A DNA stretch of 50,372 nt from positions 1-50,372 of the forward strand of contig JAOZHO010000036.1 in NCBI GenBank assembly GCA_026014875.1, read 5' to 3'. Position numbers and translations under genes: made by a program. Below the pieces are notes generated by a model, which searched no databases, was not told the origin of the DNA, and saw only the letters and a program-made list of their open reading frames with translations. Each line of letters starts with the position of its first letter. The first letter of the stretch is position 1. This DNA is from Candidatus Bathyarchaeota archaeon. Its GTDB lineage: Archaea; Thermoproteota; Bathyarchaeia; TCS64. Below are positions 22,669-48,730 of the stretch, in pieces.

Positions 22669-23487
22669 TTAGACAGGGTCTCCGTCAAACATGCCGAGTA
22701 GCCCCTCCCCCGTTTTCACGGTCACATCCTCGTTCGAGGCGAGATACTCGACGACCTCTGAATATCTCCTCCCGAACCTCATCTTGAGGGAGCAGTTGTG
22801 CCAAAGGATCGTGAGAACCCTCCCTGAGGGAAGTCCCTTGCAGAGATTGACCGCTTGTTGAACCCTTCTCAGGACGTCCCCTTCATCCTCCAGATCCGTG
22901 AAGATGAGCGCGTCCATAATCGATATCGGGAAGACTCTGATGCCCTCCCTCTCGAAGCCCAGGCAGTCCCTCGCTGTCACTCGATCCCGGCGGTACTTGA
23001 TCGACGAATCGTATCGGAACCCCGCCTGTTTCAGATTACCCAGCAGGAGGTCCTGGTGATCCACGCCGACCGTGTAGTGGGTCCTGTTCCCGAGTATCTT
23101 TGTCCCTGAGACCTTCTCGAGGGTCTTCTTCTCCTCCACGAGGCTCAGGGGATGCTGGATGGAGAGGTGATCCGAATGGAGCCCCACCTCCCAGCCCCCC
23201 GATACCATGGACCTGATCTCTGAGCGGTACTCCTTTACGTCATAGGGTGGAGGCCGGTGATGCGTGTCCATCCTGGTCCTGAAGAAGAAGGTGGACCTGA
23301 GGCCATGCCTCTCCTCGATCTCCAGGATCTCTGGAATATTCTGGTAAGGATTCTTCTCATCCAGATTGTTGATGACCGCCTCATCGAAACGACTCCGCCT
23401 CGCGAGGACATGCGGGATGGGGGCACCGGTCTTCCCCCAGTCGACGTCGTGGCTCAGAAAGACGGGGATAGGCTCCTCAGGGGTCAC
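22669..23487 (-). CDS. Polysaccharide deacetylase (NodB/CE4-like)
   Basis: Carbohydrate de-N-acetylase-like protein. The first motif LSHDVDW carries the catalytic and metal-binding aspartates. STFFFRTRMD, GWEVGLHSDHLS (metal histidines), GNRTHYT and LTILWHNCS (final His motif) follow in NodB order. The length, 272 aa, is normal. The likely substrate is an N-acetyl sugar on a lipid or nucleotide carrier. A GTG start at 23487 is supported by TTTTTAT 27 bases upstream. It lies 66 bases after an ATP-grasp ligase, suggesting deacetylation followed by amine ligation. Confidence 0.82.
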   Translation of the reverse strand: MTPEEPIPVFLSHDVDWGKTGAPIPHVLARRSRFDEAVINNLDEKNPYQNIPEILEIEERHGLRSTFFFRTRMDTHHRPPPYDVKEYRSEIRSMVSGGWEVGLHSDHLSIQHPLSLVEEKKTLEKVSGTKILGNRTHYTVGVDHQDLLLGNLKQAGFRYDSSIKYRRDRVTARDCLGFEREGIRVFPISIMDALIFTDLEDEGDVLRRVQQAVNLCKGLPSGRVLTILWHNCSLKMRFGRRYSEVVEYLASNEDVTVKTGEGLLGMFDGDPV

Positions 23488-23510
23488 AATACACGCTCAG
23501 CCCGCTGGCG

Positions 23511-23517
23511 ATAAAAA
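23511..23517 (-). promoter_or_regulatory. TATA box for the NodB-like deacetylase
   Basis: TTTTTAT on the minus strand, centred 27 bases before the GTG start at 23487, supporting a leaderless GTG-initiated transcript independent of the ATP-grasp gene upstream. Confidence 0.5.
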
Positions 23518-23553
23518 TGTGTCTCGAATATCGAGAGCCCGATGCCCCCGTAT

Positions 23554-24735
23554 TCAGCGGGAGAGAGGATGCTCGCTCATCTTCTTGTATCTCGTCAGCC
23601 GCCCGACGCCTTCCATGAACTGTAATATGTGGGGCTTCACGTCGTCGAGGTGAAGATCCGTCAATCTCCTCTTGCTGGAATCCTTCATCGCCGACGTGAC
23701 CCTCCGCCTCTCCCTGATGAATGAGAAGAGCAGCTGGGGAAAGTGCGCAGACATCCACCACATCTGGAGGCCCTTCTCGTAACGGAAACAAGGCTCCACG
23801 TCGCCGTCCTCAGCGATCTTGTAGAGAAGGCGCGGGAAATCGACCCCGGACGCGATGGAGAGCTCTAGGGTCCCCCAGAACTTGGAGTTGACCTCCATGA
23901 GGCGCGGGGTGCCCTCGCGATCCATCTTGAACTCCACCTGGGCCACCCCGTGCCAGCCCATCTCCTCGAGGAGGCGCAGGGCCGTCTCGATGAGCTCCGA
24001 GTCCTCGATGGTCTCGTTCACGATCCCCACGCCGCCCCCCGGGGGGAACGTGGCGACCCTCCGCTGGGCCATCGCCGCCCTCGGCTCTCCCTGGTTGAAG
24101 AGGACGCAGACGTCCCTGATCTCCCCCGGGATGTACTCCTGGATCATGGGTGACTCGAAGTCGAGGATCACGTTGGAGCTCTTACCCTGGAACTCCAGGA
24201 GTATCCTTTCAAGTTCCTCTTTACCCGTGGCGTAGCGGGTCCCCGTGCCTGCAGCCCCCTTCCTAGCCTTCACCACAACAGGGAAAGGCCCGGAGTAATC
24301 GAAGCCGCTATCACCCGCTGTCACCGTCTCCGGAACCGGTACTCCAATTCTCTCTGCGATCTCGATAGACTTCAGCTTGTCGTGCGCCAGCTCCAGCACG
24401 TCGTAGTCTGCCACGGGCACATCGACAAAATCCGCGAGATCGTCTTTATGATAAGAAAGAGGAATCGTCGTGTCGACACCTATCGGAATGACGATGTCGA
24501 CCCCCTCCTCGACGGCGATCCCCTTGATATCTTCGATGAACTTCTCGATGGAAACACTGGGGGGCGTGTAGGTCCTCCACCCTGAGCTGTACTTGGAGGC
24601 CGCTGCCACCCTTCTCCTCGGGTCCCTACCCCCCACGACGACGCTGGCACCGGCCCTCCCCAGGGACCTCACTGCCGCTAGGGCGTTCTTGTAGCTGAAG
24701 TTGGTGACGAGAACGCGGGAGGGCAAACCAATCAT
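23554..24735 (-). CDS. ATP-grasp carboxylate-amine/thiol ligase (first of three)
   Basis: ATP-grasp enzyme that would activate a carboxylate as acyl phosphate and join it to an amine. An N-terminal preATP-grasp domain (RVLVTNFSYKNALAAVRSLG) is followed by the nucleotide-binding half with VVVKARKGAAGTGTRYA (lysine and glycine loop) and metal-binding LMEVNSKFWGTLELS near residue 305. From ATG 24735 it has 393 aa. That start is chosen because AAATATATAC lies 24 bases upstream and the 21 earlier residues are not family-like. Co-oriented with the deacetylase below and DUF354 above. Confidence 0.82.
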   Translation of the reverse strand: MIGLPSRVLVTNFSYKNALAAVRSLGRAGASVVVGGRDPRRRVAAASKYSSGWRTYTPPSVSIEKFIEDIKGIAVEEGVDIVIPIGVDTTIPLSYHKDDLADFVDVPVADYDVLELAHDKLKSIEIAERIGVPVPETVTAGDSGFDYSGPFPVVVKARKGAAGTGTRYATGKEELERILLEFQGKSSNVILDFESPMIQEYIPGEIRDVCVLFNQGEPRAAMAQRRVATFPPGGGVGIVNETIEDSELIETALRLLEEMGWHGVAQVEFKMDREGTPRLMEVNSKFWGTLELSIASGVDFPRLLYKIAEDGDVEPCFRYEKGLQMWWMSAHFPQLLFSFIRERRRVTSAMKDSSKRRLTDLHLDDVKPHILQFMEGVGRLTRYKKMSEHPLSR

Positions 24736-24754
24736 GTATGGTTCAAGAACTCCG

Positions 24755-24763
24755 TATATATTT
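24755..24763 (-). promoter_or_regulatory. TATA box for the 24735 ATP-grasp gene
   Basis: AAATATATA on the minus strand, about 24 bases before ATG 24735: a strong archaeal TATA match that decides the start. Confidence 0.55.
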
Positions 24764-24842
24764 CTTTGATAATGGATGCCCTGCTGAGCATCACACATCA
24801 GAAAGGCTCATGATGGGCGATCACTAATTCAGTCTACGCAGA

Positions 24843-25925
24843 TCAAGTGGCGATTCTCTGGCCCCGTCTCTCGATCTCGTCCGCAATGACCTTCACGGGA
24901 TCTTCAAAGACTTTGACGAGGAGCCTCGCCTTCCCCTCCTGAGCCTCCCTCTGGGACTTCGGATCGACTAGAAGCTCCGAAGCTCTCTTCACGAGGGATT
25001 CGAGGTTCGTCTCCCTCTCGTTGAGGCCTTGCTCGATGAGGAAGAGCTCCACCAGTGTAGGCTTCCCCGGGTAGCAGGAGATCGTTGGGACCCCGAGGAT
25101 CGCCGCCTCGGCGCTCATGGTCCCCCCGGCGCCGATGAAGAGGTCCGAGAAATGGAGCAGGCTCGGGCCGTCCACCGCCTTCTCCGGCACGATGACATCC
25201 CCATCGTAGGAGCCCTTCAAGGCTGAGGCCTGTTCTAGGTATCTGGGGATGACCACTATCTGGACGTCTTGTTCCAGCTCAATGAGACCCTGGAGGAGGC
25301 GCTTAATCGCCGATTCTCCCATGTTCATTTTCAAAAGATACGCGGCGAAGATCTCAGCCGATCTGATCGTGATCACAGGCTTCCCCTGATCAATACCGAG
25401 CTCCTCAAGGATCCCCCGATCGGGCTCAAAGTCCTTCAGCCACGCCCACGGGTCGAGAGCGTTGTATCGCACAATGGATTCCGGCTTGATGCCGTAGCCC
25501 GTCCACGCCTCCTTGGGAATCATCCAAGGGGTCATCAAGGTCTCCGAGAGGGGGATCGTGAGCTTCATGACCGCCTCCGCATGGGGGGAGTCGCTGATGC
25601 ATAGATGAGGGATCCCAAGCCCGAACGATGCCCTCGCCGCCTCGGGGGACGAGAAGGAAACCACGAGATCCGGATTGAAATCCTCGTACACCGGGACCAG
25701 GCCAGCGATCCTGTTCACGCTCTCTAGGAGTTTCCTCTTCAAGCTCTTCCCGCCGTGCCTCCCGACGGCGGTCGCCTCGATCCCCCGCTTCTCGATGATC
25801 TCGTCGACTTCCCGGTAACGTCTCGTGGTCATGAGAACCTGATGTCCTCTCTCCAGAAGCTCCGCGTGGAGCACCTGGAACATCATGCACTGCTTGGGCG
25901 TGAGTATATCGATGACGACCTTCAA
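24843..25925 (-). CDS. DUF354 family GT-B-like protein
   Basis: Member of DUF354, archaeal/bacterial proteins with a GT-B glycosyltransferase-like fold found in surface-polysaccharide clusters. The start VVIDILTPKQCMMFQVLHAEL is the family hallmark. SDLFIGAGGTMSAEAAILGVPTISCYPG near residue 270 is the nucleotide-sugar-binding-like loop. TTG 25925 is preferred over GTG 25961 because family members begin right at this ILTPKQ segment. Length is then 360 aa. It may transfer a sugar onto the carrier made by the GlcNAc-1-P transferase encoded just upstream. Confidence 0.78.
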   Translation of the reverse strand: MKVVIDILTPKQCMMFQVLHAELLERGHQVLMTTRRYREVDEIIEKRGIEATAVGRHGGKSLKRKLLESVNRIAGLVPVYEDFNPDLVVSFSSPEAARASFGLGIPHLCISDSPHAEAVMKLTIPLSETLMTPWMIPKEAWTGYGIKPESIVRYNALDPWAWLKDFEPDRGILEELGIDQGKPVITIRSAEIFAAYLLKMNMGESAIKRLLQGLIELEQDVQIVVIPRYLEQASALKGSYDGDVIVPEKAVDGPSLLHFSDLFIGAGGTMSAEAAILGVPTISCYPGKPTLVELFLIEQGLNERETNLESLVKRASELLVDPKSQREAQEGKARLLVKVFEDPVKVIADEIERRGQRIAT

Positions 25926-25990
25926 CTGGACCCCTTCAGACCTTGGCTCGACGGGAACCACCGTTGTCCCGTCTCATTCGTTGTACCCAA

Positions 25991-26239
25991 TTAGTCTAAA
26001 AGTCTACGGTCTCCGATGGCCCGCCAGAACATCCAAGTGGCCAGCTTCTTCCAGAGGAGCAGCCACAACAGGACGAGGACGGTGCTTATCACTACCTGCA
26101 CGATGTTGACGATGTACGCCTGCTCGATTCCCGGGATCTTCAGAGGGATGATCAAATAGTCGATGAGCCAGAGCCCCCCGATCGAGCAGATCCACACGAA
26201 GAGGAGTATGATCACGAAATCGAGGACCCTGCGGATCAT
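25991..26239 (-). CDS. 82-aa two-helix membrane protein coupled to GlcNAc-1-P transferase
   Basis: Small protein with two hydrophobic helices (about residues 8-32 and 43-65). The linker between them has LIIPLKIPGIEQAY and the tail is basic. It starts inside the stop of the upstream transferase gene (ATGA overlap), so the two are translationally coupled and probably act together in the membrane. Family unknown to me. It may stabilise the transferase or help flip its product. Confidence 0.7.
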   Translation of the reverse strand: MIRRVLDFVIILLFVWICSIGGLWLIDYLIIPLKIPGIEQAYIVNIVQVVISTVLVLLWLLLWKKLATWMFWRAIGDRRLLD

Positions 26240-27246
26240 GTGAACACCAACATCATGTAGGCTGTGACCAACGCGAGGCCCCCCGATATGACTGAGAGAA
26301 CCATGAATACGAGAGCCGCCTCGTTTTCTTTCAACGGCCCACGCGCCAAGATGAACCGGGCGAGGGTGATGGGAGCCCTCGGGTCCGCCCTGGCCCTCAT
26401 CCGCCCGTCCTCCATAAGCCTCGTCGGCCGGGCCACCTCCCTCCTTTCATACAGGTGCCCGATGGTGGATAGCCCGTAGAAGGCGTTCATGATCTGGGGC
26501 ATGAAGGCCACCACAGCCACAACCTCGAGGCGCCCGAGAACCGCTATCGCCCCGAGGGCGGCACCCACGCTGAGGCTCCCTACGTCCCCCGAGAAGACCC
26601 TCGAGGGATATCTGTTGTAGTAGAAGAAGGCCAGGAGGACGCCCAGCAGCGCCACGGATAGGATAACGCCCTCGGTGTTCCCCAGGATCAGCGCAGCGAC
26701 GAGCAGCGTAAGCGCGATGATGGAGCTGGACCCCGCCATCACCCCGTTGAAGGGGTCCATCATGTTCACTGCGTTCGATGTCACCGCCATGACGATGGGG
26801 AGGAGGAGAGGATAGACCCTGGTGAGACGGGTCCCCCCGATGAACGGGAAGACTATGCTCGGCGTGTATGTGCTCATGAGGAGGATCGGTAACCCAGCGA
26901 AGGCTGTCAGGAAGGGTTTCACCTTAGCGTTGAGCGGCTTCAGATCATCATACGCCCCAATGATGCCGGCGATCATGATCGTTCCGATGAAGCTTAGAAG
27001 CATCTCACGCTCATCCGGGAGGATGAATATGCCCACGACCGTACATGCAACGAGACCCAGCAGAATGGCTAAACCCCCCATCTCCGGGATAAGGGGATGA
27101 TCGATCTTGTGGGCGTCACGCCCCACGACTCCCCGCTCCGTCATCTTCCTCATTATACGTGGAAGGGAGAAATGGCAGACGATGAATCCGACTAGAAAGA
27201 TGATCCCTGTCTCTATTATGGGATATACTGAGTCAGATTGGACCAT
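26236..27246 (-). CDS. Glycosyltransferase family 4: polyprenyl-phosphate GlcNAc-1-phosphate transferase (WecA/MraY/AglH-like)
   Basis: Integral membrane enzyme moving a sugar-1-phosphate from a UDP-sugar to a dolichyl or polyprenyl phosphate, the first step of N-glycan or surface-polymer assembly. About ten hydrophobic segments are present. Family motifs are AYDDLK (Mg-binding aspartates, about 99-104), NAVNMMDPFNGVMAGSS (about 160-176), FSGDVGSLSVGAALG (about 220-234) and the cytoplasmic ARPTRLMEDGR loop. At 336 aa it is normal length. A TTAATAAC box lies about 27 bases before ATG 27246. Confidence 0.9.
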   Translation of the reverse strand: MVQSDSVYPIIETGIIFLVGFIVCHFSLPRIMRKMTERGVVGRDAHKIDHPLIPEMGGLAILLGLVACTVVGIFILPDEREMLLSFIGTIMIAGIIGAYDDLKPLNAKVKPFLTAFAGLPILLMSTYTPSIVFPFIGGTRLTRVYPLLLPIVMAVTSNAVNMMDPFNGVMAGSSSIIALTLLVAALILGNTEGVILSVALLGVLLAFFYYNRYPSRVFSGDVGSLSVGAALGAIAVLGRLEVVAVVAFMPQIMNAFYGLSTIGHLYERREVARPTRLMEDGRMRARADPRAPITLARFILARGPLKENEAALVFMVLSVISGGLALVTAYMMLVFT

Positions 27247-27311
27247 CTTTACGCGGTTTATTTCAGAGTTATTAAGGCTTCTTTAAACGCAGAGCTGGAA
27301 TTCACCCTTCA

Positions 27312-28367
27312 CTATTTGGTCAACACGCCTTTCTTGTGGAAAACTTGGTCCATGTATCGGACCATCCGGCGCCCGTAATCGATCTTGGGGGGGTATGCCT
27401 TGATCTCCTCCTCTGTGAGTTCCCCAATTGCGAGTTTCACCGCGAGATATGGAGCGATCAGATTCTCTTGGTAGATGAAAGTTGAGACCCGGGCGTTGAT
27501 CTCGATCAATCTATCTGCGATGAACTGAAAGTTCAGGCAATAACTCAGTGGGATAGCCTCTAGGATGCGGCGCGTCTGCTCGACCAGATCGTCGCGTTTG
27601 ATGAGCTCTCCCCGTACGATCACCCCCCATCGCGCCGTCTCGACGGTCTTCACAGTGGTGAAGAGCTCACGCCCCTCCATGGCGATTATATCTGTCGCGA
27701 TTTCGCCTCCCTCAAGGTACTCCATGAGGAGGAACTTGGGTAGCTCTTCGTCGTCCCGGAATATTCTCTGAAACTCGTCTAGGGCCATGTATTTGCTGAC
27801 GGGTTTTTTTTCCATCAGCAGTGTTCGACGGTCAGCTTTCTCATCCAGAATGCGGACGCCGCGACTCCCACGACCCATATGCGGTTTAAATACCACAGGC
27901 TGATCCGGATAGCCGAGTGCTGCAAGGGCATCCAGGAACTCATCCATGGTTTGGGCTGAGCGATACTCCGGCAGAGGCTTGAATCCGCGAGTGCGCAGGG
28001 TTTCATACATCTCAAACTTGTTGGTGGCCTTTCTGATGGCCTCCGGATCTGAGACCATGACCGTCGTACCTAGGTCAAGGAACTCCTCTCGATGGCAGGC
28101 CAGGGGATAGATTTCAGGGTCGCCCTCGCTGAGAAGTACGTCGGGTCTCTCCTTCTTCACGACATCCAACATCGCGGGGATGTAATTTTCATGGCTCCCC
28201 TCAGGCACCACATGGAATCCATCAGTCAGAAACCGTCCCACGGCTTCCGGGTCCATGTCCGTGCCGACGATCTCAAGTTTTCTTTCTCCGTTGTTCTTCA
28301 GATGATGGATGAGCGTGGAGGCTCCCGGGCATCCACATGCCGTTAAGAGGACCTTGATTGGTTTCAC
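27312..28367 (-). CDS. ATP-grasp ligase (CarB-like), paralog of 40438-41499
   Basis: ATP-grasp protein of 351 aa resembling carbamoyl-phosphate-synthase large-chain ATP-grasp domains. The N-terminal Rossmann-like domain opens LLTACGCPGASTLIHHLK. Ligase motifs are VVFKPHMGRGSRGVRIL (phosphate-binding loop) and LIEINARVSTFIYQ (metal-binding). It is clearly homologous along its whole length to the plus-strand protein at 40438 (shared TACGCPGASTLI, EAVGR.L.DGF, KIDYGRRM.RYMDQ.FHKK). GTG start with GAAGGT seven bases upstream. It follows a PIG-L deacetylase by 11 bases: likely a two-step deacetylation/ligation unit. Confidence 0.85.
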   Translation of the reverse strand: MKPIKVLLTACGCPGASTLIHHLKNNGERKLEIVGTDMDPEAVGRFLTDGFHVVPEGSHENYIPAMLDVVKKERPDVLLSEGDPEIYPLACHREEFLDLGTTVMVSDPEAIRKATNKFEMYETLRTRGFKPLPEYRSAQTMDEFLDALAALGYPDQPVVFKPHMGRGSRGVRILDEKADRRTLLMEKKPVSKYMALDEFQRIFRDDEELPKFLLMEYLEGGEIATDIIAMEGRELFTTVKTVETARWGVIVRGELIKRDDLVEQTRRILEAIPLSYCLNFQFIADRLIEINARVSTFIYQENLIAPYLAVKLAIGELTEEEIKAYPPKIDYGRRMVRYMDQVFHKKGVLTK

Positions 28368-28378
28368 TGGCGATACCT

Positions 28379-29002
28379 TCAGAATTCTAAGACTCCCCTG
28401 ATCAGATTAAACGCTTCAGCGTAACGTGCGTTAATCTTAGTTCCATGATACTGCAGCCCCGCTGTTATTTTCTTGGGATCGGAATAAGGCAGGAATTTCT
28501 GTGTATGATAGCATTCGAGTAGATCTCTTTTCTTGTCAGCAATCTCATCAGGGATGACAATGTAAAAATCCGGACTGAACTTCACGCTGCTGCGCGGAGA
28601 TTCGTAACCCAAGATCGTGCTGCTCTTGAAGACTTTTCGACATTCATCTCTGAGACAGCCGTGATCCTGATGAACGTCATCAAGCGAATGGGTGAACACC
28701 AGTTGAGGGGCAAACTCATCCCGAATCACTTCGAGTTTCTCCCGAATCTTGGCCTCATGCTTGTACAACAAGCGATTTGGAAAGTCCATGAGTTCAGCGT
28801 CATCTCGGTTTAAACCAAGAATATTAACGGCGTTTTCCCACTCCATTTCGATGCCTTGGTTTCTGGGGAGATCCGTGCATTTACTGAACGCGATATAATT
28901 GATTTTAACATCCTGTGTCAGAAATAATCCGAGGGCGCCACCGCAACCAAACTCGACGTCATCGGGGTGTGCCCCAACGGCGAGAACGCGTTTAAACATC
29001 AA
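28379..29002 (-). CDS. PIG-L/LmbE family N-deacetylase (first copy)
   Basis: Zinc-dependent de-N-acetylase of the PIG-L/LmbE/MshB family, which removes acetyl from GlcNAc-containing lipids or small glycosides. AHPDDVEFGCGG provides the N-terminal His-Pro-Asp-Asp metal/catalytic motif, and THSLDDVHQDHGC the second, with catalytic His. Length is 207 aa. The start may be TTG 29002 or ATG 28999. It begins 3 bases after the GT-B gene and ends 11 bases before the ATP-grasp gene, so glycosyltransferase, deacetylase and ligase form one operon. Confidence 0.87.
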   Translation of the reverse strand: MMFKRVLAVGAHPDDVEFGCGGALGLFLTQDVKINYIAFSKCTDLPRNQGIEMEWENAVNILGLNRDDAELMDFPNRLLYKHEAKIREKLEVIRDEFAPQLVFTHSLDDVHQDHGCLRDECRKVFKSSTILGYESPRSSVKFSPDFYIVIPDEIADKKRDLLECYHTQKFLPYSDPKKITAGLQYHGTKINARYAEAFNLIRGVLEF

Positions 29003-29005
29003 TCT

Positions 29006-29836
29006 TCAAGCTCCATCCAAGAGATCTTTGTACATTTCCCAGATTTCAGCCACCACGTTCTCGGGGCGATGCTCATCCGGAAGCCCGGTGAGCACCTCAT
29101 CGTTCCAGTTGATAACCTTACATTCGCAGGCGAGAGCCTCTAAGCCCGTCTTACTGAGAACCTGAAGAAGTTTTCCACGTGCACCCTGCGAATAGGAACG
29201 TTTCACGTCGATGTAGTATTCATAACTCGATAACACGTCTCCCATGTCAATGTATGGGATGGGCACTGAGCTACGATCATGGATGGTCAATTCCAGATTT
29301 CTATTCCCCGCATATTTTCGGGCCAGATCATCGGCATCGTGGGCCATGTGAAATGCGTGACCCTTTTTCCTCTCTTTTGCGCTGGCGAAAAAAATATCGG
29401 TGTCGACGGGGTTTGGCTGCCAGGTCACTCCTTCAGGTGCTCCTTCTAGGAGATCCGAAGTTGACACCGTTATTTTATCGGCCACTTGCCAATATTTCCT
29501 ACGCTCGGGCCATCGCCCTCGTACATTGCTTCCCTCGTAATGAAGAAGCACAGGCTTCTTGGGATAAAATCGCTTTATCCATGGTACTATTTTGTCCAAG
29601 GCGTGGACGTGTATCAGATCGTATTCCCTTACTCGACGGAGAGTTTCTATGCTGAAATGCCTGGGGCCCATGTCTAGAGTTTCGCCATAGACGGTGAAGC
29701 CGAACTTGTCCATAACGCTCCTCGTGATGACCCAACTTTTAGTGGGATAATGGCGATCCATATATTTCGCTACGATACTCGCGCACCCGGCTGTATTCCA
29801 GATGTGAAGAATTCTCGTCTCCATTAATCCATTCAT
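29006..29836 (-). CDS. GT-B (GT4-like) glycosyltransferase
   Basis: Glycosyltransferase-like protein of 276 aa. The N-terminal half has ILHIWNTAGCASIVAKYM and DLIHVHALDKIVPWIKR, typical of GT4 acceptor domains. The middle KITVSTSDLLEGAP...WQPNPVDTDIF is the GT4 interdomain hallmark, and SKTGLEALACECKVI fits the nucleotide-sugar-binding E-x7-E region in reduced form. It is shorter than the usual 350-400 aa. The start is ATG 29836 or ATG 29824 (METRILHIW); TTATAAAT lies at 29855-29862. First gene of the operon with PIG-L and ATP-grasp. Confidence 0.78.
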   Translation of the reverse strand: MNGLMETRILHIWNTAGCASIVAKYMDRHYPTKSWVITRSVMDKFGFTVYGETLDMGPRHFSIETLRRVREYDLIHVHALDKIVPWIKRFYPKKPVLLHYEGSNVRGRWPERRKYWQVADKITVSTSDLLEGAPEGVTWQPNPVDTDIFFASAKERKKGHAFHMAHDADDLARKYAGNRNLELTIHDRSSVPIPYIDMGDVLSSYEYYIDVKRSYSQGARGKLLQVLSKTGLEALACECKVINWNDEVLTGLPDEHRPENVVAEIWEMYKDLLDGA

Positions 29837-29991
29837 ATGCAGAGGGAATTTAGCATTTATAATTCAACTCCTTGAACATTTCGCTGAATCTAATCATAGT
29901 TCATTGAAAAAACGGGGCCCTCCACTTTTCCCCGTGTTGTGTAGACAAAAGGTTGAAAATATAAGCGGGGGTCTTAATGTGGGAGCTAAAG

Positions 29992-30723
29992 ATGATCCTT
30001 GTTCTATGTGTCGATGGAATCGATCCGGACCATGTAACCGAAAACGGGTTCTCAAATTTTAAATACAATCTGAAACTCAAGATCCCTGATAGCTGTTACA
30101 TCCAGACTGATCACGGTCGCGAACCCCACACCACGCGTGTCTGGCCGACCATCTTCTCAGGTAAAAATATCGACTACGGGGTTCAGAGAAGGGGAAAGAC
30201 TAGGCAGATTATCCACGATTTCATGGTGAAAAACAAGCTATCCTGGTCAGGTCCTCGAGGGTACAACGTGGCTCCCATCAACGTGAATCTTGACACTGTC
30301 TTCGATCACTATCACAGCTTCAAGTGGAATATCCCGACCATTTGCCCCGAGTGGATAAGCAAGTATCCCGGTATCGAGGCTTGGAGGAAGTATATGGTCA
30401 GGGAATATCAGATGTGGATCATGATGTCCCTGGGTTGCATCTACAGCAGTTATGACCTCATCGGCCTATACACCCGAAGACTAGACTATGTCGGACACCA
30501 GGAGCCCGACAAAATGGATGCGCTTTATAGGGACATTTTCGGACACGCTGAACTGCTAAACGCCAAAGTGAAGCTCGTGGTGGTGAGTGACCACGGCTGC
30601 ATCGATAAATATCACACCGACTACGCTTACATGGGCTCGGATCTACCAATCACCGCAGGGTCTGTAAACGAGGTTAGAGCAGATATTGAGAATCTGATGA
30701 AATCAGCGAATGGCGCTAAGTGA
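29992..30723 (+). CDS. Compact alkaline-phosphatase-superfamily phosphodiesterase-like protein
   Basis: Small (243 aa) member of the alkaline phosphatase/type I phosphodiesterase fold. LCVDGIDPD gives the first metal aspartate, TRVWPTIFSGKN the nucleophilic threonine, RRLDYVGHQEP Asp and His ligands, and VVVSDHGC the last Asp-His pair. It lacks most insertions of the family, so it looks like a minimal form. ATG 29992 is preferred over 29977 because the TATA box GAAAATATAAG (29955-29965) lies only about 16 bases before 29977. Convergent with a second, full-size member at 30757. Confidence 0.68.
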   Translation: MILVLCVDGIDPDHVTENGFSNFKYNLKLKIPDSCYIQTDHGREPHTTRVWPTIFSGKNIDYGVQRRGKTRQIIHDFMVKNKLSWSGPRGYNVAPINVNLDTVFDHYHSFKWNIPTICPEWISKYPGIEAWRKYMVREYQMWIMMSLGCIYSSYDLIGLYTRRLDYVGHQEPDKMDALYRDIFGHAELLNAKVKLVVVSDHGCIDKYHTDYAYMGSDLPITAGSVNEVRADIENLMKSANGAK

Positions 30724-30756
30724 GATAGTCTTTGCCTAGATTGGAGCCTCTGGTCT

Positions 30757-32274
30757 TCACTTTAGAATCTCTGAGAGAACCCTTCCGTCAAGATCCCCCG
30801 GGATTTCAACGTCGAGTAACCTCAGTATTGTAGGCATCACATCCAGAATATTTGCTCCCTCGAGCTTTTCTCCTTCAACAACGTCCGGACCGGAAGCGAT
30901 GAAAATCCCGTCCATTCTATGTGATCCCTTGATATCGTCTCCCGAATTTACGCCAAAAACCGTCTCAGCAGTCAAGGAGTTGGATGCCTTGTACGTGCCC
31001 CTGAGGGATAACACTATGTCTGGGGACTCGTCAACATAAGGCCCCGAATACAGTTCCTCTCTTCGATAAACATTCTCAATGATATCTTCGTCCGTTTCAG
31101 GGTCTTTCAACTTTCGTAGTTCAGCGATAATCTCGTCTCTCAGGCCTTCATATTCCCCCGGTTCCACGACCCCTCGTGGCTCCCTCCCTTTCACATTTAT
31201 CATGATGCTTTTCTTATCGGTCCCGAAGAACGACGCCATCGCAGCTTTTGATTTTTCCCAGTTGATTGCTACAGTGTCAGTAGGTATTTTTGAATACGCT
31301 TTTGTAACCGATGATGGAAGCCATTTCTTGATCACGTTGTACCCTGGGACCCTTTTGATGAATCTCAAAGAACTCTTTGTTATACCAAATTTGCTGAACA
31401 CTTGGCTGACCCCGCTCTCTTTATTCCGTAATTTCCTGATCTTGTGGCCGGATGTAGCCTCATAGTCGACCGATTCAGTAGATAACAGCCCGATTTCCTG
31501 AAGCCATTTATTTATGTAAAATGTATTTTCGGACGATCCAAATCCGTGATCCGACATAATGATGATGTTGGAGTCATCTTCCACCTTATCCACGACTTCG
31601 CCCACGATTTTGTCTACTTCACAATAATAGCTGTTGATCTTGTCCTCGTCTCCCCATAGCTTGTGTTGAATGGTATCTGATCCCACGATCATGAGCATGA
31701 AAAAATCCCAATCAAATATTTTCATGAGCGATAACGCAATCTCTTTCCTTTTAATCTCTAAAGCGAGCAATTCCTGGTATATTTCCTCTGGGCGTACAAT
31801 TCCCCCGATATCCGTGTACACTTGATATCCCATCGCATCAAGTTCCTTTTTCAGAATCTCAGGATAAACATAATTCACGCCCTGCGGAGTGAGCAACCCC
31901 GATATGAGGCAACCCTTGACCTCTTTCGGTGGGTAAGTGCCCGTGACGTTGATCACGACGCTTGTTTTTCCCACTCCACCGAGGATATCATAGACCGTGG
32001 GGCTTTTCAGGTCTTCAGAACTTGACAGGGCGCCGATGTATTTACCCGGGACCTTCTTCAAAAAATCGTAGACTCCGTGTTTACCCGGGTTTTTCCCTGT
32101 CAGGAACGATGGCCACGCCGGAATCGACGAAGGAGGGATCGTGGATTTGAGGATTCCATGCGCTCCCTCCGCCATCAACTTGGAGATACGTGGGAGACGC
32201 CCCTCTGAAATCAATGGTCTAATGATGTTGAATGTGGCTCCATCGATACCGATTACCACACAACGATTCGCCAA
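30757..32274 (-). CDS. Alkaline-phosphatase-superfamily (type I phosphodiesterase/nucleotide pyrophosphatase-like) protein
   Basis: Phosphodiesterase or phosphotransferase of the AP superfamily, 505 aa. VVIGIDGATFNII supplies the first metal Asp, IPAWPSFLTGKNPGKHGVYDF the serine nucleophile, IVGSDTIQHKLWG Asp/His ligands, IIMSDHGFGS the next pair and GSHRMDGIFI the last His. No transmembrane anchor is seen. The substrate may be a phospho-sugar or lipid-linked intermediate of the locus (inference). TTG 32274 is chosen over GTG 32295 because the TATA-like TATTATCT (32305-32312) is too close to the latter. Confidence 0.82.
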   Translation of the reverse strand: MANRCVVIGIDGATFNIIRPLISEGRLPRISKLMAEGAHGILKSTIPPSSIPAWPSFLTGKNPGKHGVYDFLKKVPGKYIGALSSSEDLKSPTVYDILGGVGKTSVVINVTGTYPPKEVKGCLISGLLTPQGVNYVYPEILKKELDAMGYQVYTDIGGIVRPEEIYQELLALEIKRKEIALSLMKIFDWDFFMLMIVGSDTIQHKLWGDEDKINSYYCEVDKIVGEVVDKVEDDSNIIIMSDHGFGSSENTFYINKWLQEIGLLSTESVDYEATSGHKIRKLRNKESGVSQVFSKFGITKSSLRFIKRVPGYNVIKKWLPSSVTKAYSKIPTDTVAINWEKSKAAMASFFGTDKKSIMINVKGREPRGVVEPGEYEGLRDEIIAELRKLKDPETDEDIIENVYRREELYSGPYVDESPDIVLSLRGTYKASNSLTAETVFGVNSGDDIKGSHRMDGIFIASGPDVVEGEKLEGANILDVMPTILRLLDVEIPGDLDGRVLSEILK

Positions 32275-32421
32275 GGCTGTACACCAATAAAGCACTCAGT
32301 AGTGAGATAATAGCTCTTTCTCGCTCTTGTACATCCAATAACTAAATATCTCAAGTTTGAGAGAAAATCGTTTAGACTGTGCTTGGATTATTTCAAATAA
32401 GTGATCCGATGTTGATAATTG

Positions 32422-33276: not shown

Positions 33277-33286
33277 GGTGTGTAGG

Positions 33287-33613: not shown

Positions 33614-33684
33614 GGGACCCTTCAAGCTCGATTATTATATACAACCTCCCCAAGAGTCAAATATAGTTCTGAGAGGTTTATGCC

Positions 33685-35022: not shown

Positions 35023-35262
35023 ACTTCCCTTTTTTCCCAACTATAATTTCACCGAGATTGGCTCGGCTACTTCGTTCTGAAGATAGTGGTGATGTACTCA
35101 AATCAACAACATCAGCCTAGAGATAATCGACTTTTATGAGACTCGTTTTTCCCCTTAAGATCGATCTAAGTAAAACTGGCTCGTTTGATCATTGTGGTAG
35201 ACTTCAATAAGAAGGTCTATACTTGATCCCAATTAGATTAAGGACCTAGAGCTGAAGCGAAC

Positions 35263-35676
35263 ATGTTGAGGAGCACAGCAAGAAGACTCAGAGATCTATG
35301 GATATATTTCAAGACTGGTCACAGCGGGTATCTAACCTTCACGCTGAGTATCTTGAACTTCGTTGTGCTTCAGCACAGGCTTCTGATCCAGTATATTCCT
35401 TTTCTTTCCAAATACCTCAGTTCTCTGACCAGCTTTTTCTTGGTTTTCGTGTTCACCTACATACCTCTGGCAATTGTGATAGGGTATTTCGAGTTCAGAA
35501 AGGGTGAGATGAAAAGGAGGCCCATGTTGAATCCCTATGCGCAAGACACGATAGAGGCACACATCCTATTGAACAAAGGCTTACTGAGCTACATCGAAGG
35601 AGACGAAGCCAGCGCCAAAGACCAGATTGAGAAGAGTAGCGCGCTTCTCAGCAAGTGGCGGCAGAGGAAGTCATAG
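35263..35676 (+). CDS. Small membrane protein of unknown function
   Basis: 137-aa protein with two hydrophobic segments (about residues 22-45 and 54-75) and a soluble C-terminal helix pair (EAHILLNKGLLSYIEGDEASAKDQIEKS). Basic residues at the N-terminus suggest a cytoplasmic tail. AATTAGATTAAG about 26 bases before the ATG fits a leaderless promoter. No family recognised. It is flanked by about 240-base gene-free stretches (35023-35262 and 35677-35914) in which I see only promoter-like AT-rich runs. Confidence 0.6.
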   Translation: MLRSTARRLRDLWIYFKTGHSGYLTFTLSILNFVVLQHRLLIQYIPFLSKYLSSLTSFFLVFVFTYIPLAIVIGYFEFRKGEMKRRPMLNPYAQDTIEAHILLNKGLLSYIEGDEASAKDQIEKSSALLSKWRQRKS

Positions 35677-35914
35677 AATTTTCGATAAAAATGACCAAGG
35701 GGCAGCTCTCGGAAGACTTTCGAAACCATACATAGAGTCTGCCTAGACCCTCATTCGTGTATGGATGGTAAAAGGCAATCCGTCTGCTTTAAGATATAAG
35801 GAATGACATTGCTGCGGATCGAATCCATGTCTGAAACTGAAAACTAGGGACATAGGGCGTGTATTACAGATAAGAAATTATTAGTATCCGGACGGGTCTT
35901 TCATCCTTGATTCT

Positions 35915-37759: not shown

Positions 37760-37800
37760 ACCCCGATAAATAGGGGGAGCTCGCTCCCCTTTTTACCGTA
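37752..37800 (+). terminator. Nested hairpin and T-run after the AOR gene
   Basis: Inner stem GGGGAGC (37774-37780) pairs with GCTCCCC (37783-37789), followed by TTTTT (37790-37794). An outer 9-bp stem pairs TACGGTAAA (37752-37760), which contains the AOR stop codon, with TTTACCGTA (37792-37800). The inner hairpin plus T-run looks like a transcription stop. The outer arms could form an alternative fold or shield the RNA end. Confidence 0.6.
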
Positions 37801-37945
37801 AAAAAAATATGGTGGGCGTTCATTCCACGCTCTAAGGAATCGACGTATATTCAATGATTCTTGAAAGAGACGTTCGAGTAATTCACATTGAGGAGCGCCC
37901 AAAAAATGGCACGTTGAGGCCAACGGAGCCTCATACGGAGTGTTT

Positions 37946-38323
37946 TTATCTCTCCTTGATTCGCTGCCCTATGGTCTTGAGCTCCCCGTGCTCCTTGTAA
38001 CGGATCTTGGTGTTCAGCCTCACGTTGAGCCCCAGTCGCCTCAGGAAGGCGAAGAGGCTCTCCCCGTCGATGCGGTCCCGGATCTTCCCCGACTTGATCC
38101 CCTCCACGAGGGCCTGCTCCACCTGGGGCATCACCGTGGGGTACTGGATCTTCGCGGTTTCGTAGACCTCCCAGGCCCTCCCGGAGAACATGCCGTCCAG
38201 GATCTCCCTGGGGGTGGGCTCCGCGGGTTTCTCCGGCTCCTCCTCTGCCTTCTCATCCTGGAGCATGCGTCTCTGGAACTCCAGCATTCTCCGCCTCTTG
38301 ATCCTCTCCAGTTTCTCGTCCAT
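37946..38323 (-). CDS. PDCD5-like DNA-binding protein
   Basis: Archaeal relative of human PDCD5/TFAR19, a small helical protein associated with double-stranded DNA binding. The start MDEKLERIKRRRMLEFQRRM is a basic helix like the family opening. The core PREILDGMFSGRAWEVYETAKI...VEQALVEGIKSGKI matches the triple-helix bundle. A Glu/Pro linker (about 24-37) and a C-terminal basic extension (NTKIRYKEHGELKTIGQRIK) are as in other archaeal members. ACTTATAGG lies about 40 bases upstream of the ATG. Confidence 0.68.
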   Translation of the reverse strand: MDEKLERIKRRRMLEFQRRMLQDEKAEEEPEKPAEPTPREILDGMFSGRAWEVYETAKIQYPTVMPQVEQALVEGIKSGKIRDRIDGESLFAFLRRLGLNVRLNTKIRYKEHGELKTIGQRIKER

Positions 38324-38503
38324 TCCAGCAGCCTCGAACGACTTTTCCCCAGTCGCAGCCTATAAGTCCAGAGGCTCAGGGATATAGTTTACCTTGGTCA
38401 TAGCCGTCTGTAAGAGGAGTTACTCCCTGAAGCATAATCCCACATAAACTCCCTGCGACAGATTTAAGGGCCCAACGCGAAATCGTCAACAGGAGACAAC
38501 CAA

Positions 38504-38929
38504 ATGAAGGTTCACAGCGCTAGTTTTACATTCGACACGGAAGGCGAATTCGACATAGTCGAAATCACAGGCCGAGTCGACGAAGCGGTGAAGGACTCCG
38601 GAGTCGGCGAGGGCATAGCAGTCGTGTTCGCGGGTCACGCAACCGGGGTCATCGTACTGAACGAGTACGATTATGCCCTCCTCGAGGACCTCAGGGCTTT
38701 CATGGAGAGGCTCGCACCTGAATCCCCCGGATACACTCACCCCGTGAACGCCGATGCCCACCTCCGCTCTATGCTGTTCACCCCCAGCAGGGTGATCCCC
38801 GTCCACGACGGCCGTCTCGGACTGGGTACTTGGCAGAGCCTTTACTGGGTCGAAGCCGAGAGGAGGCCTAGGCGTCGGAGGGTCGAGGTCACGGTCATCG
38901 GGGAACCCGTGTCAGCAGACAAACGATAA
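38504..38929 (+). CDS. YjbQ/UPF0047 family protein
   Basis: UPF0047 (YjbQ) family protein of 141 aa; bacterial homologues have weak thiamine-phosphate-synthase activity, the native role being unclear. Hallmarks are VVFAGHATGVI (His45), NADAHLRSML (His86), FTPSRVIPVHDGRLGLGTWQSLYWVE (93 to 118) and PRRRRVEVTVIGEP. GATTTAAGG (38460-38468) is a likely TATA. The gene is single, with its own promoter. Confidence 0.88.
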   Translation: MKVHSASFTFDTEGEFDIVEITGRVDEAVKDSGVGEGIAVVFAGHATGVIVLNEYDYALLEDLRAFMERLAPESPGYTHPVNADAHLRSMLFTPSRVIPVHDGRLGLGTWQSLYWVEAERRPRRRRVEVTVIGEPVSADKR

Positions 38930-38961
38930 AAGCCCTGGAAGACTATTCAATTCGATTCTCC

Positions 38962-40320
38962 ATGAGCATCCTAGACGAGTATGTGCGCCAGAACCCCGGT
39001 TCCAAGGAGGCCTACGAGCAAGCCCAGCGCTTCCTCCCCAGCGGGAACACCCGGACGGTCCTCTACTGGCCCCCATTCCCCCTCTGCCTGAGGGCGGGGA
39101 GAGGCACCAGGCTCTGGGACGTTGATGGAAACGAGCGCATCGACTTCAACTTCAACAACACCACCCTCATCCTCGGCCACAACCACCCCAAGGTCATCGA
39201 GGCAGCCGAGGAACAACTCGCCCGGGGCACAGTCCTGGGAGCCCCCACCGAGACCGAGCCCCTGCTGGCTGAGGAACTACTCCGCAGGCTCAAAGGCGCG
39301 GAGAGGGTCCGCTTCACCCCCTCGGGGACCGAGGCGAACATGCAGGCCATCAGAACCGCCAGGGCCTACACCGGGAGGGATCTCATCGCCAAATGCGAGG
39401 GAGCCTACCACGGCTCCTGGGACGCAATAGACATCAGCGTCGCCCCACCCTTGGACCAGGCCGGTCCCAGGGAGGCCCCCAACAGCGTGAGGCAGCAGGC
39501 CGGGATACCCGAGGGGGTCCTCAGGAACACACTGACCCTTCCCTTCAACGACGCCGAGGCCGCAGTCGCCCTCATAGAGAAGCACCGGGACGAGCTCGCC
39601 GCAGTCATCGTGGAGCCCGTCCAGAGGGACCTCCCCCCGGAGCCCGGGTTCCTCGAGGCCCTCAGGGAGGCCACGGAGCGCCACGGCATCGTCCTCATCT
39701 TCGACGAGGTCATCGCCTTCAGGGTCGGCTACCACGGGGCCCAGGGGAGGCTCGGGGTCACCCCGGACATCACCACCCTGGGGAAGGTCATCGGAGGAGG
39801 CTTCCCCGTGGGAGCCTACGCCTCCACCGAGGAGTTCATGGAGCCCCTCGCCATCCCCGAGGCCAAGTTCCCCGACTACAGGGGGCCCCGCCTCGGCTTC
39901 TCCGGCACCTTCAACGCCCACCCCGTCACCATGGCCGCCGGTCTCGCCGTCCTCAAGGAGCTTCGGCCCCCGGTCTACGACAAGATGGACCGCAACGGGG
40001 AGAAGATGAGACAAGGCCTGACGAAAATTCTGGATGAGGCGGGCATCAACGCCTTCGTGGGAGGGATGGCCTCCTTCTTCCCCGTCATATGGACCACAGA
40101 GAAAGTCAGGGACTACAGGTCCGCAGCGACCGGAGACAGGACGATCTCGAGATACTTCTCTGTTGATCTCATGAACCGGGGGGTCTTCCTCTTGGGCCAT
40201 CCTAACATCTGTGCGGTCACGACCAATGAAGACATCAGCTTCACACTTGACAGAATAAGGAAAAGTGTCGAAACCCTTGCACCCATTATCGAAGATGAAG
40301 CCCCCCATCTCATAGAATAG
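38962..40320 (+). CDS. Class III PLP-dependent aminotransferase (HemL-like)
   Basis: Fold-type I aminotransferase of class III, 452 aa. PLP motifs are SGTEANMQAIRTARAYTG near 115, IFDEVIAFRVG near 245 (PLP aspartate) and TTLGKVIGGGFPVGAYAS with catalytic Lys275. It resembles glutamate-1-semialdehyde aminomutase, but no tetrapyrrole gene is nearby. Other class III members act on omega-amino acids, including taurine or 2-aminoethylphosphonate. A TATA-like CGATAAAAG (38926-38934) sits just over the end of yjbQ. It precedes the ATP-grasp/PIG-L pair. Confidence 0.85.
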   Translation: MSILDEYVRQNPGSKEAYEQAQRFLPSGNTRTVLYWPPFPLCLRAGRGTRLWDVDGNERIDFNFNNTTLILGHNHPKVIEAAEEQLARGTVLGAPTETEPLLAEELLRRLKGAERVRFTPSGTEANMQAIRTARAYTGRDLIAKCEGAYHGSWDAIDISVAPPLDQAGPREAPNSVRQQAGIPEGVLRNTLTLPFNDAEAAVALIEKHRDELAAVIVEPVQRDLPPEPGFLEALREATERHGIVLIFDEVIAFRVGYHGAQGRLGVTPDITTLGKVIGGGFPVGAYASTEEFMEPLAIPEAKFPDYRGPRLGFSGTFNAHPVTMAAGLAVLKELRPPVYDKMDRNGEKMRQGLTKILDEAGINAFVGGMASFFPVIWTTEKVRDYRSAATGDRTISRYFSVDLMNRGVFLLGHPNICAVTTNEDISFTLDRIRKSVETLAPIIEDEAPHLIE

Positions 40321-40437
40321 ACGTTAGGATGTGACCTCGGTGAAGTCTCTTCACAGTCCTATCTGAGACGTTAAATAGAGTTGGTTTTTTTATAGCTACA
40401 CGAAGCTTGAGAAACTGGTGATGAAGGTGAACGGACA

Positions 40438-41499
40438 ATGAGGCCCCTAAAATTAATTTTAACTGCCTGCGGCTGCCCTGGCGCTTCCACACTTATACGC
40501 ATGCTTAAGCAGAACGGGGAGAGGGAAGTCAAGATAATCGGGACCGACATGAGCCTCGAGGCTGTCGGACGCTACCTTTGCGACGGGTTCTACAAAGTAC
40601 CTTCGGGGACGAGCCCCGAGTATATCCCGGCGATGATGGATTTAGTCGAAAAGGAGAAGCCAGATCTCATCTTCCCCGAGTCGAGCAACGAGGTTCTCAC
40701 TCTGGCTAGATCAAAAAAAGAGTTTGAGGAAATTGGGACGAGTGTGGTTGTCTCCTCCCCTGAATCCATCGAACTAGCCAACAACAAGTATCTGATGTAC
40801 GAAGCGGTCAAGAAAGGCAGCGGGATCGATCTTCCCACGTATCACTCAGCCTCGAACCTCGATGACTTCCTCGAAGCCGCAGACAAGCTAGGTTACCCCG
40901 ATTCGCCCATCGTCTTTAAGCCCCATTTTGGGAAAGGTAGCAGGGGCGTGAGGATCATAGATCCCCGTGCCAACAGATTACATCAGTTGATGGAGGAGAA
41001 GCCGACAAACAAGTTCATGAGCCTCGATGAATTCACCGAAATTTTCAGGGGGCTGGCGGATGAGGACTTCCCCAATCTCCTCGTCATGGAATATCTGGAA
41101 GGCATGGAGAAAACCGCAGATACGATCGCGATGGATGGCCGTGAGCTCCTGACCACTATCAAGACTGTGGAGCGGGCCAGGTGGGGTGTGATCGTTGAAG
41201 GAGAGCTCGTGCAAGACGACAGCCTTGTGAGCCAGTCGAGGGAGATCCTGCGGTCCATACCTCTGAGTTACTGCGTAAACATCCAATTCATAGCCGACAA
41301 GCTAATCGAGATCAATCCCCGGGTCAGCACGTTCATCTATCAGAATGACCTGATTGCCCCATATCTAGCGGTCAAGTTGGCCCTTGGTGAGATCACTGAA
41401 GAGGATGTTAAGGCATATAGGAGTAAGATAGATTATGGTAGGAGGATGATACGGTACATGGATCAGTTATTCCACAAGAAAGAGGAGAGAGTATTATGA
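40438..41499 (+). CDS. ATP-grasp ligase (CarB-like), paralog of 27312-28367
   Basis: 353-aa paralog of the minus-strand ligase. It opens LILTACGCPGASTLIRMLK and has VFKPHFGKGSRGVRII (phosphate-binding loop), LLVMEYLEG and LIEINPRVSTFIYQ (metal-binding). Differences cluster in the central insert (FTEIFRGLADEDFPN), consistent with a different acceptor or acid. TTTTTTTATAGC (40384-40395) and GAAGGTGA seven bases ahead of the ATG give it its own promoter and ribosome site. The last bases overlap the following PIG-L gene by ATGA. Confidence 0.85.
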   Translation: MRPLKLILTACGCPGASTLIRMLKQNGEREVKIIGTDMSLEAVGRYLCDGFYKVPSGTSPEYIPAMMDLVEKEKPDLIFPESSNEVLTLARSKKEFEEIGTSVVVSSPESIELANNKYLMYEAVKKGSGIDLPTYHSASNLDDFLEAADKLGYPDSPIVFKPHFGKGSRGVRIIDPRANRLHQLMEEKPTNKFMSLDEFTEIFRGLADEDFPNLLVMEYLEGMEKTADTIAMDGRELLTTIKTVERARWGVIVEGELVQDDSLVSQSREILRSIPLSYCVNIQFIADKLIEINPRVSTFIYQNDLIAPYLAVKLALGEITEEDVKAYRSKIDYGRRMIRYMDQLFHKKEERVL

Positions 41500-42104
41500 G
41501 TAAGACCTTTTTCCAGAATGTGCTCGTTCTCAGCCCTCATACAGACGATGGAGAATTAGCCGCAGGGGGAACCATCGCCCGTTTCGTTCAAGAAGGCTCC
41601 AACGTCACATACGTCGCGCTCTCGGCCCCTCGCCCTGAACTCCACGAAGAATGTAAAAAGTGTCTAGAGGTTCTCGGCGTCGATGATTATTCGATACTAG
41701 ATTTCCCTCGGAGGATATTCCCGGAAAAACGTCAGGAGATTCTCCAGTACATCTACGACTATAACGCTGAGAACGATGTTGATCTGGTGCTCACTCCCTC
41801 CACTCAGGACCTTCATCAGGACCATCAGACGGTCACAAGAGAAGCGATGAGGGCCTTCAAGAACAGCAGCATACTCGGCTATGAGCTACCCTGGAACCAC
41901 ATCATCTTCAACGAGAACTGCTACATCTCCCTGACCGAGGAACATGTCGAGAAGAAATTGTTGGCGCTCTCGCATTACAAGACCCAGGAGACCCGCCACT
42001 ACTTCGATATGGACTATTTGAGGGGCCTGATGCGATCCAGAGGAGTCCACATTAAAACAAAGTTCGCGGAGTCTTTCGAGGTAATAAAACTCGTTCTGAC
42101 CTGA
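41496..42104 (+). CDS. PIG-L/LmbE family N-deacetylase (second copy)
   Basis: 202-aa PIG-L-type deacetylase. LSPHTDDGELAAGG carries the N-terminal metal/catalytic residues, with Thr replacing the common Pro-flanked position (HTDD instead of HPDD). TPSTQDLHQDHQTV is the second motif. Translationally coupled to the upstream ATP-grasp gene (ATGA). It shares order-independent pairing with the copy at 28379: the same two families together, here ligase first, deacetylase second. It ends 12 bases from the convergent GT2 gene. Confidence 0.85.
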   Translation: MSKTFFQNVLVLSPHTDDGELAAGGTIARFVQEGSNVTYVALSAPRPELHEECKKCLEVLGVDDYSILDFPRRIFPEKRQEILQYIYDYNAENDVDLVLTPSTQDLHQDHQTVTREAMRAFKNSSILGYELPWNHIIFNENCYISLTEEHVEKKLLALSHYKTQETRHYFDMDYLRGLMRSRGVHIKTKFAESFEVIKLVLT

Positions 42105-47360: not shown

Positions 47361-47362
47361 AG

Positions 47363-48729: not shown

Positions 48730-48730
48730 G

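Follow-up and report, generated by a model that had tools for sequence, protein, structure and literature searches.

A recurring pairing of sugar deacetylase and ATP-grasp ligase genes, found in a bathyarchaeal glycan locus and predicted to form the core of an N-modification cassette

Introduction

PIG-L and CE4 enzymes take N-acetyl groups off amino sugars, and ATP-grasp enzymes link a carboxylate to an amine by way of an acyl-phosphate. Genes of these kinds stand side by side three times, as deacetylase and ATP-grasp pairs, in a 50,372-nucleotide (nt) stretch of DNA from a Candidatus Bathyarchaeota archaeon (contig JAOZHO010000036.1 of assembly GCA_026014875.1), hereafter called the window. 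Several described systems resemble parts of this arrangement. In the capsule of Campylobacter jejuni, a TupA-like ATP-grasp domain (Cj1438C) couples glucuronate to serinol-phosphate or ethanolamine-phosphate, and the HAD phosphatase Cj1435 removes the phosphate (PMC11800379, PMC13276843). In the mycothiol (MshA, a phosphatase, MshB, and MshC) and bacillithiol (BshA, BshB, and BshC) pathways, transfer of N-acetylglucosamine and de-N-acetylation by a PIG-L enzyme are followed by acylation of the glucosamine amine with an amino acid (PMC7278568). In the Caulobacter holdfast, HfsH carries out CE4-type deacetylation, and re-acylation of the exposed amines has been proposed (PMC5362036). In glucosaminyl-phosphatidylglycerol synthesis, a glycosyltransferase and a deacetylase, GpgS and GpgD, yield a lipid bearing free glucosamine (PMC12713373).

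The gene sets described below resemble the C. jejuni system in bringing an ATP-grasp enzyme and a phosphatase together in surface polysaccharide synthesis, where an amide would be made from a phosphate-bearing partner that is later dephosphorylated. Cj1438C, however, is TupA-like, is fused to a GT2 domain, amidates a uronate, and has no deacetylase partner, whereas the ATP-grasp enzymes considered here are PF15632/PRK12767-like. The window ATP-grasp is a stand-alone PF15632-type protein, with no GT2 fusion and no TupA match among the Pfam matches listed, and is not of the Cj1438C/Cj1435 type. The holdfast system likewise has CE4-type deacetylation before a proposed acyl transfer, but the transfer is assigned to HfsK, a protein of GNAT fold (FemAB/GNAT-like), and involves neither an ATP-grasp enzyme nor a phosphatase. 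The GpgS/GpgD pathway ends at the amine and has no ligase. A search of the open literature found no described system that combines ATP-grasp and PIG-L enzymes, although an earlier mention is possible, for example in the ATP-grasp amidoligase survey of Iyer et al. 2009. The parts are of known kinds; their combination appears to be new. With a probability of roughly 0.6, we take each pair to be the core of a glycan N-modification cassette that carries out N-deacetylation, ATP-dependent acylation, and then often dephosphorylation. Non-acetyl N-acyl groups on surface amino sugars alter charge, recognition, and stability, and few enzymes that install them are known.

Results and Discussion

Three deacetylase and ATP-grasp pairs in one window

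The six genes were first listed in an initial annotation of the window, and all six open reading frames (ORFs) are indeed open at the coordinates it gave. They are listed here with hidden Markov model (HMM) scores and, for two, the confidence of an AlphaFold model (predicted local distance difference test, pLDDT). The Pfam cut-offs are 28.2 bits for PIG-L (PF02585), 23.1 for Polysacc_deac_1 (PF01522), and 29.1 for ATP-grasp (PF15632).

27312..28367, minus strand: predicted ATP-grasp amide ligase, pair 1 (PF15632, 47.9 bits; PylC-like_N, 51 bits)
28379..29002, minus strand: predicted PIG-L/LmbE-type zinc de-N-acetylase, pair 1 (PF02585, 57.6 bits; pLDDT 94.6)
40438..41499, plus strand: predicted ATP-grasp amide ligase, pair 2 (PF15632, 57.6 bits; pLDDT 92.3)
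41496..42104, plus strand: predicted PIG-L/LmbE-type zinc de-N-acetylase, pair 2 (PF02585, 65.6 bits)
22669..23487, minus strand: NodB/CE4-type polysaccharide deacetylase, pair 3 (PF01522, Polysacc_deac_1, 26.0 bits)
23554..24735, minus strand: second, more distant ATP-grasp, pair 3 (PF15632, 59.6 bits)

The spacing within pairs also agrees with that annotation: 11 nt in pair 1 (28367/28379), a 4-nt overlap in pair 2 (41496-41499), and 66 nt in pair 3 (23487/23554). Translation of the pair-1 PIG-L gene more probably begins at an ATG (28999) than at the TTG. A deacetylase gene next to an intact ATP-grasp gene, the arrangement by which we recognize the cassette, is present in all three.

By descent, however, pairs 1 and 2 are copies within one family and pair 3 is a distant relative, a distinction that the initial annotation missed, along with the third gene, for a phosphatase, that usually accompanies the pair in its relatives. 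The ATP-grasp proteins of pairs 1 and 2 share 63% sequence identity and are sisters in a maximum-likelihood tree (support 100/97), while that of pair 3 is more distant (26% identity). The PIG-L proteins of pairs 1 and 2 are 32% identical and are not sisters; the pair-2 protein falls inside a 17-row clade (99/97) that holds most PIG-L proteins of the cassette, and the pair-1 protein falls outside it. Gene order is opposite as well, with PIG-L first in pair 1 and ATP-grasp first in pair 2. Sister ligases beside dissimilar deacetylases in reversed order imply that the ligase gene was duplicated and that the deacetylases have different histories.

Conserved pairing among homologues

A scan with the ATP-grasp alignment against one genome per species found 56 loci, 34 with close relatives and 22 with distant ones. 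The 34 close relatives and five haloarchaeal plasmid loci make up the set of 39 loci considered below. Near-duplicates occur in this set (e.g. L015/L016, L026/L043, and L033/L036/L038), so there are fewer than 39 independent lineages. Archaeal carriers of the 34 close relatives include Thermoplasmata, Methanomicrobia, Methanosarcinales, Methanophagales, Halobacteria, Thaumarchaeota, Asgard archaea, Hadarchaea, and DPANN; bacterial carriers are Clostridia/Bacillota, Bacteroidales, WOR-3, and Breznakiella.

Within 2 kb of the ATP-grasp gene, 25 of the 39 loci encode a PIG-L protein and 8 a NodB/CE4-like protein. The PIG-L gene directly precedes the ATP-grasp gene on the same strand in 14 loci, the two ORFs either overlapping at their ends or lying no more than 25 nt apart. 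For 33 genomes, the chance expectation was computed from PIG-L counts per genome and genome sizes: a PIG-L gene within about 2.3 kb of the ATP-grasp gene is found in 23, against about 0.1 expected. In 15 of the 33, this PIG-L is the only one in the genome. The 22 distant ATP-grasps of the same scan provide a built-in negative control, as none of their loci contains a PIG-L, CE4, PHP, or HAD gene. Pairing of the deacetylase and ATP-grasp genes is far above chance. Rare adjacency elsewhere had been named in the initial annotation as an outcome that would refute its reading; adjacency proved to be conserved over many phyla, with PIG-L and CE4 enzymes interchanging in the deacetylase position.

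The scan was replicated in the class of a Methanoregula genome (232 genomes), the class of a Salinibaculum genome (392), and the phylum of a Bacteroidales genome (395), which yielded 38 loci, 31 of them new. Among catalytically intact ATP-grasps, 27 of 28 have a deacetylase neighbor (16 PIG-L and 11 NodB, four of the latter seen only in extended flanking DNA), and one has neither type. Of ten catalytically broken ATP-grasps, which have lost catalytic residues or, in one case, carry a stop codon and an altered E224, none has a deacetylase and none a phosphatase. The ten come largely from one haloarchaeal clade (compare L008-L010/L046) and therefore represent few evolutionary events.

Could these genes adjoin one another merely as members of hypervariable glycan clusters, with no joint reaction? 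All belong to families common in such clusters, and islands of low G+C content in the window (0.47-0.52 versus 0.64) suggest mobile glycan genes. Mere membership, however, fails to explain gene order and start/stop overlaps kept across phyla, or a PIG-L neighbor that is so often the sole copy in its genome; nor would it leave distant ATP-grasps and broken copies without such partners. With 23 PIG-L neighbors against an expectation near 0.1, we reject this explanation as extremely improbable.

No homologue of the ATP-grasp was found in a phage collection. In a first sample of the window's phylum, no genome but the window's own had the pair; a search among relatives found the ATP-grasp in one genome of the same genus and two of the same class.

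Several loci depart from the usual arrangement. In Haloferax-type exopolysaccharide clusters (L008, L009, L010, L046, L106-L107, and L109-L116), the ATP-grasp has lost catalytic residues (e.g. E291/N293) and has no deacetylase or phosphatase neighbor; it is possibly a pseudoenzyme or a protein of altered function. Clostridia-type loci L030, L033, L036, and L038 have an extra gene between PIG-L and ATP-grasp. In the last three, it encodes a pyridoxal phosphate enzyme resembling ornithine or diaminopimelate decarboxylase, joined by 4-nt overlaps and hinting at an amino-acid-derived partner. Two proteobacterial plasmid loci, with the orders formyltransferase, ATP-grasp, HAD (L011) and ATP-grasp, HAD (L013), present another set suggestive of amine acylation.

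Exchange of unrelated enzymes in two positions

The gene downstream of the ATP-grasp in relatives usually encodes a PHP-domain protein or a HAD hydrolase. In the 39-locus set, PIG-L is combined with PHP in 11 loci and with HAD in 3, and NodB with PHP in 2 and with HAD in 6. The ATP-grasp tree requires at least two switches of deacetylase and at least four of phosphatase. Since enzymes of one reaction type but of unrelated families have replaced each other in both partner positions, the genes are best viewed as encoding one reaction sequence rather than as sharing a neighborhood; this is the strongest argument for a cassette. Recurring in many archaeal and some bacterial phyla with unrelated enzymes in two of its positions, the cassette offers genetic and biochemical targets. 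It would also suggest functions for glycan-cluster genes now labeled "ATP-grasp domain-containing", "PIG-L family", "PHP domain", or "HAD hydrolase".

A search of the whole genome to which the window belongs for the PHP protein of L015 found no close homologue. Near pair 1 lies a gene of the alkaline phosphatase (AlkP) superfamily:

30757..32295, minus strand: AlkP-superfamily phosphodiesterase (PF01663, 141 bits)

In a genome of the same genus, an 81% identical gene adjoins the ATP-grasp/PIG-L pair (L132, 11143-12669). The AlkP-superfamily protein is a candidate stand-in for the phosphatase in the window's clade. Between pair 1 and this full-length gene, 29977-30723 encodes a short AlkP-like protein with a weak Phosphodiest match (15 bits).

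Predicted chemistry of the cassette

The AlphaFold model of the pair-2 ATP-grasp resembles 2pn1, its best match in the PDB, as well as carbamoyl phosphate synthase and RizA. The closest families by HMM are the PRK12767-type "carbamoyl phosphate synthase-like" proteins (102 bits) and PF15632 (57.6 bits, above its cut-off). Residues K117, K161, E218, E291, and R295 are invariant in the homologue alignment and, together with N293, are kept across the ATP-grasps save for the Haloferax-like copies. The model of the pair-1 PIG-L resembles BshB, diacetylchitobiose deacetylase, and MshB. The PIG-L residues H12, D14, and D15 (H-x-D-D) and the distal H114 are invariant, and PF02585 is matched by all 26 aligned members.

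From these properties and the conserved gene sets we infer the following order of reactions. First, an N-acetylhexosamine borne by a glycan, lipid, or nucleotide intermediate would lose its acetyl group through the action of a PIG-L or CE4 deacetylase. The ATP-grasp enzyme would then use ATP to convert a carboxylic acid to an acyl-phosphate and couple this to the freed amine. The deacetylase is the most constant partner of the ligase, which argues for that amine as the ligase's substrate. Finally, a phosphatase of the PHP or HAD type, present in most relatives, would strip a phosphate, most simply one brought in on the acid, by analogy with the serinol-phosphate amide system of C. jejuni. In the window, ATP-grasp copies 63% identical to each other are paired with dissimilar PIG-L proteins, and on the simplest reading the same or a similar acid would be put on two different amino sugars. 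The initial annotation had proposed much the same logic, freeing an amine and then acylating it; conserved adjacency and the exchange of PIG-L for CE4 fit that proposal, which left out the PHP or HAD partner and whose chemistry is a prediction.

Several observations weigh against this scheme. The ATP-grasp scores under every curated cut-off among the NCBIfam equivalogs, meeting no family of known substrate, so neither the acid nor the amine can be assigned. The clade to which the ATP-grasps of window pairs 1 and 2 belong, together with L014, L017, and the same-genus loci L129 and L132, has no neighboring PHP or HAD gene. L014, a Heimdallarchaeote locus with the closest relative of the window ATP-grasp outside the genus (48-49% identity), has coenzyme M (CoM)-type genes instead of a deacetylase beside it. 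The link between catalytic decay and deacetylase loss depends mostly on one Haloferax-like haloarchaeal clade. Finally, Cj1438C, the best ATP-grasp/phosphatase precedent, couples an amine phosphate to the carboxylate of a uronate, not an acid to a sugar amine.

The C. jejuni precedent thus supports the role given to the phosphatase, yet also supports an alternative in which the ATP-grasp acts on a uronic acid of the same glycan, whose carboxylate it joins to an amine (an aminoalcohol phosphate, a taurine-like amine, or an amino acid). Tailoring by the deacetylase would then be a separate step, and the phosphatase would remove the phosphate of the amine donor, as in Cj1438C/Cj1435. Besides this direct biochemical precedent for an ATP-grasp and a HAD phosphatase, nucleotide-sugar dehydrogenases (cluster c3) in 10 loci are consistent with uronamide formation. 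So are class III aminotransferase genes, one adjoining pair 2 and the sulfopyruvate decarboxylase genes (comDE) in the same-genus genome and another 118 nt upstream of pair 2 in the window. Uronamide formation does not, however, account for the deacetylase as the most constant partner, or for a second deacetylase family where PIG-L is missing, and where Haloferax clusters encode two sugar dehydrogenases but lack a deacetylase, the ATP-grasp has lost catalytic residues. We consider it unlikely, and prefer acylation of a sugar amine.

A second ATP-grasp family and its CE4 partners

Of 200 genomes of the phylum, 8 (the window's own and 7 others) encode a homologue of the pair-3 ATP-grasp. Outside the window, a CE4-type gene adjoins the ATP-grasp gene in 8 of 9 loci, three of which have a PHP gene as well, which argues for the same deacetylase-ligase logic in this second family. 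The CE4 gene nearest to the pair-3 deacetylase (L071, E-value 3e-20) also adjoins an ATP-grasp gene, and itself has no Pfam match. Reading the sequences directly, we find a FemAB-like gene flanking the CE4/ATP-grasp pair in L078 and L079, a further point of likeness to the holdfast system, and the second His of the HxxxxH-like motif in the pair-3 deacetylase off its usual spacing (HSDHLS).

Among NodB/CE4 partners generally, that of L006 scores 27.0 bits to PF01522, above the cut-off, while others score weakly (5 of 8 at E-values up to 1). A profile of these partners matches CE4 at 94.7% and peptidoglycan deacetylases in the PDB at an E-value of 0.006.

Genomic neighborhood and nature of the product

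Most loci lie in polysaccharide or glycan clusters, where genes for polyprenyl-phosphate glycosyltransferases and nucleotide-sugar dehydrogenases are accompanied by several other glycosyltransferase genes. The window has the following neighbors of the pairs.

24843..25961, minus strand: DUF354 (GT-B-like) glycan gene (PF04007, 198.8 bits; cluster c5)
26236..27246, minus strand: WecA/MraY-type polyprenyl-phosphate glycosyl-1-phosphate transferase (PF00953, 112 bits)
29006..29836, minus strand: probable short GT4-like glycosyltransferase, upstream of the pair-1 PIG-L on the same strand with a 3-nt gap
42117..42947, minus strand: GT2 glycosyltransferase (PF00535, 72 bits; cluster c31)
43043..43600, minus strand: sulfopyruvate decarboxylase beta (TIGR03846, 230 bits; cut-off 221.5)
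43602..44174, minus strand: sulfopyruvate decarboxylase alpha (TIGR03845, 184 bits; cut-off 147.95)

The DUF354 family is present in eight compared loci, counting the window. Relatives of the GT2 gene adjoin PIG-L genes of the cassette in L039 and L044, and the gene is syntenic in L132. The GT4-like gene has no Pfam or NCBIfam match, but weakly matches (E-value 1.6e-4) an HMM built from the GT4-like genes located ahead of PIG-L in L015, L016, L020, L022, and L024.

The order glycosyltransferase GT4, PIG-L, ATP-grasp, PHP in L015, L016, L020, and L022 mirrors the logic of MshA, phosphatase, MshB, and MshC. The product of these enzymes might accordingly be no glycan at all but an amino-acyl-glucosamine conjugate, which could be a thiol or sulfonate cofactor. 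Sulfonate- or CoM-type genes near the ATP-grasp in both the window and L014 would suit such a product, as would the nearest NCBIfam model to the window PIG-L proteins, BshB1. Scores to that model are 67 and 47 bits against a cut-off of 182.5, and to MshB 16.7 against 224, so we reject identity with BshB or MshB. To our knowledge, neither MshC nor BshC is an ATP-grasp enzyme, and the products of those pathways are free small molecules, whereas the cassette occurs mainly in large glycan clusters that encode polyprenyl-phosphate transferases and numerous glycosyltransferases. A mycothiol-like cofactor is therefore very unlikely. Of the products first proposed for the locus, a glycan is favored and a mycothiol-like small molecule less so.

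Synteny of pair 2 and the sulfopyruvate decarboxylase genes is shared by two species of the genus (the window and L132, 6574-7663). L014:5680-10380 encodes in succession an aminotransferase I/II, the ATP-grasp, an XcbC-like lyase, whose best match is the XcbC model at a score under that model's cut-off, and ComA (phosphosulfolactate synthase); it is possibly a CoM or sulfonate pathway with an ATP-grasp. These neighbors suggest a sulfonate but fall short of proof. On the strength of the synteny and the ComA and XcbC-like neighbors, the window subfamily might join a sulfonated acid (of the sulfoacetate, sulfolactate, or cysteate type) or a taurine-like amine to an amino sugar or glycan. We judge this quite unlikely; if true, the surface glycan would be of a new kind, sulfonated and amide-linked, and made by a cassette with exchangeable deacetylase and phosphatase positions.

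Methanogenic CoM synthesis was rejected as the reason for comDE, because neither ComA nor methyl-CoM reductase was found in the window's genome. Phosphonate synthesis is unlikely: matches to phosphoenolpyruvate mutase are weak (33-37 bits), and scores to the sulfopyruvate models exceed those to the phosphonopyruvate models.

Toward the two ends of the window lie gene sets identified by inspection of the sequence: a type I restriction-modification set (HsdR, HsdS, and HsdM) at 223-6199, with a G+C content of 0.40-0.45 that gives way to the 0.6-0.65 of the genome, and a molybdenum hydroxylase operon (xanthine/CO dehydrogenase-like) with XdhC- and MocA-like genes at 45096-50072.

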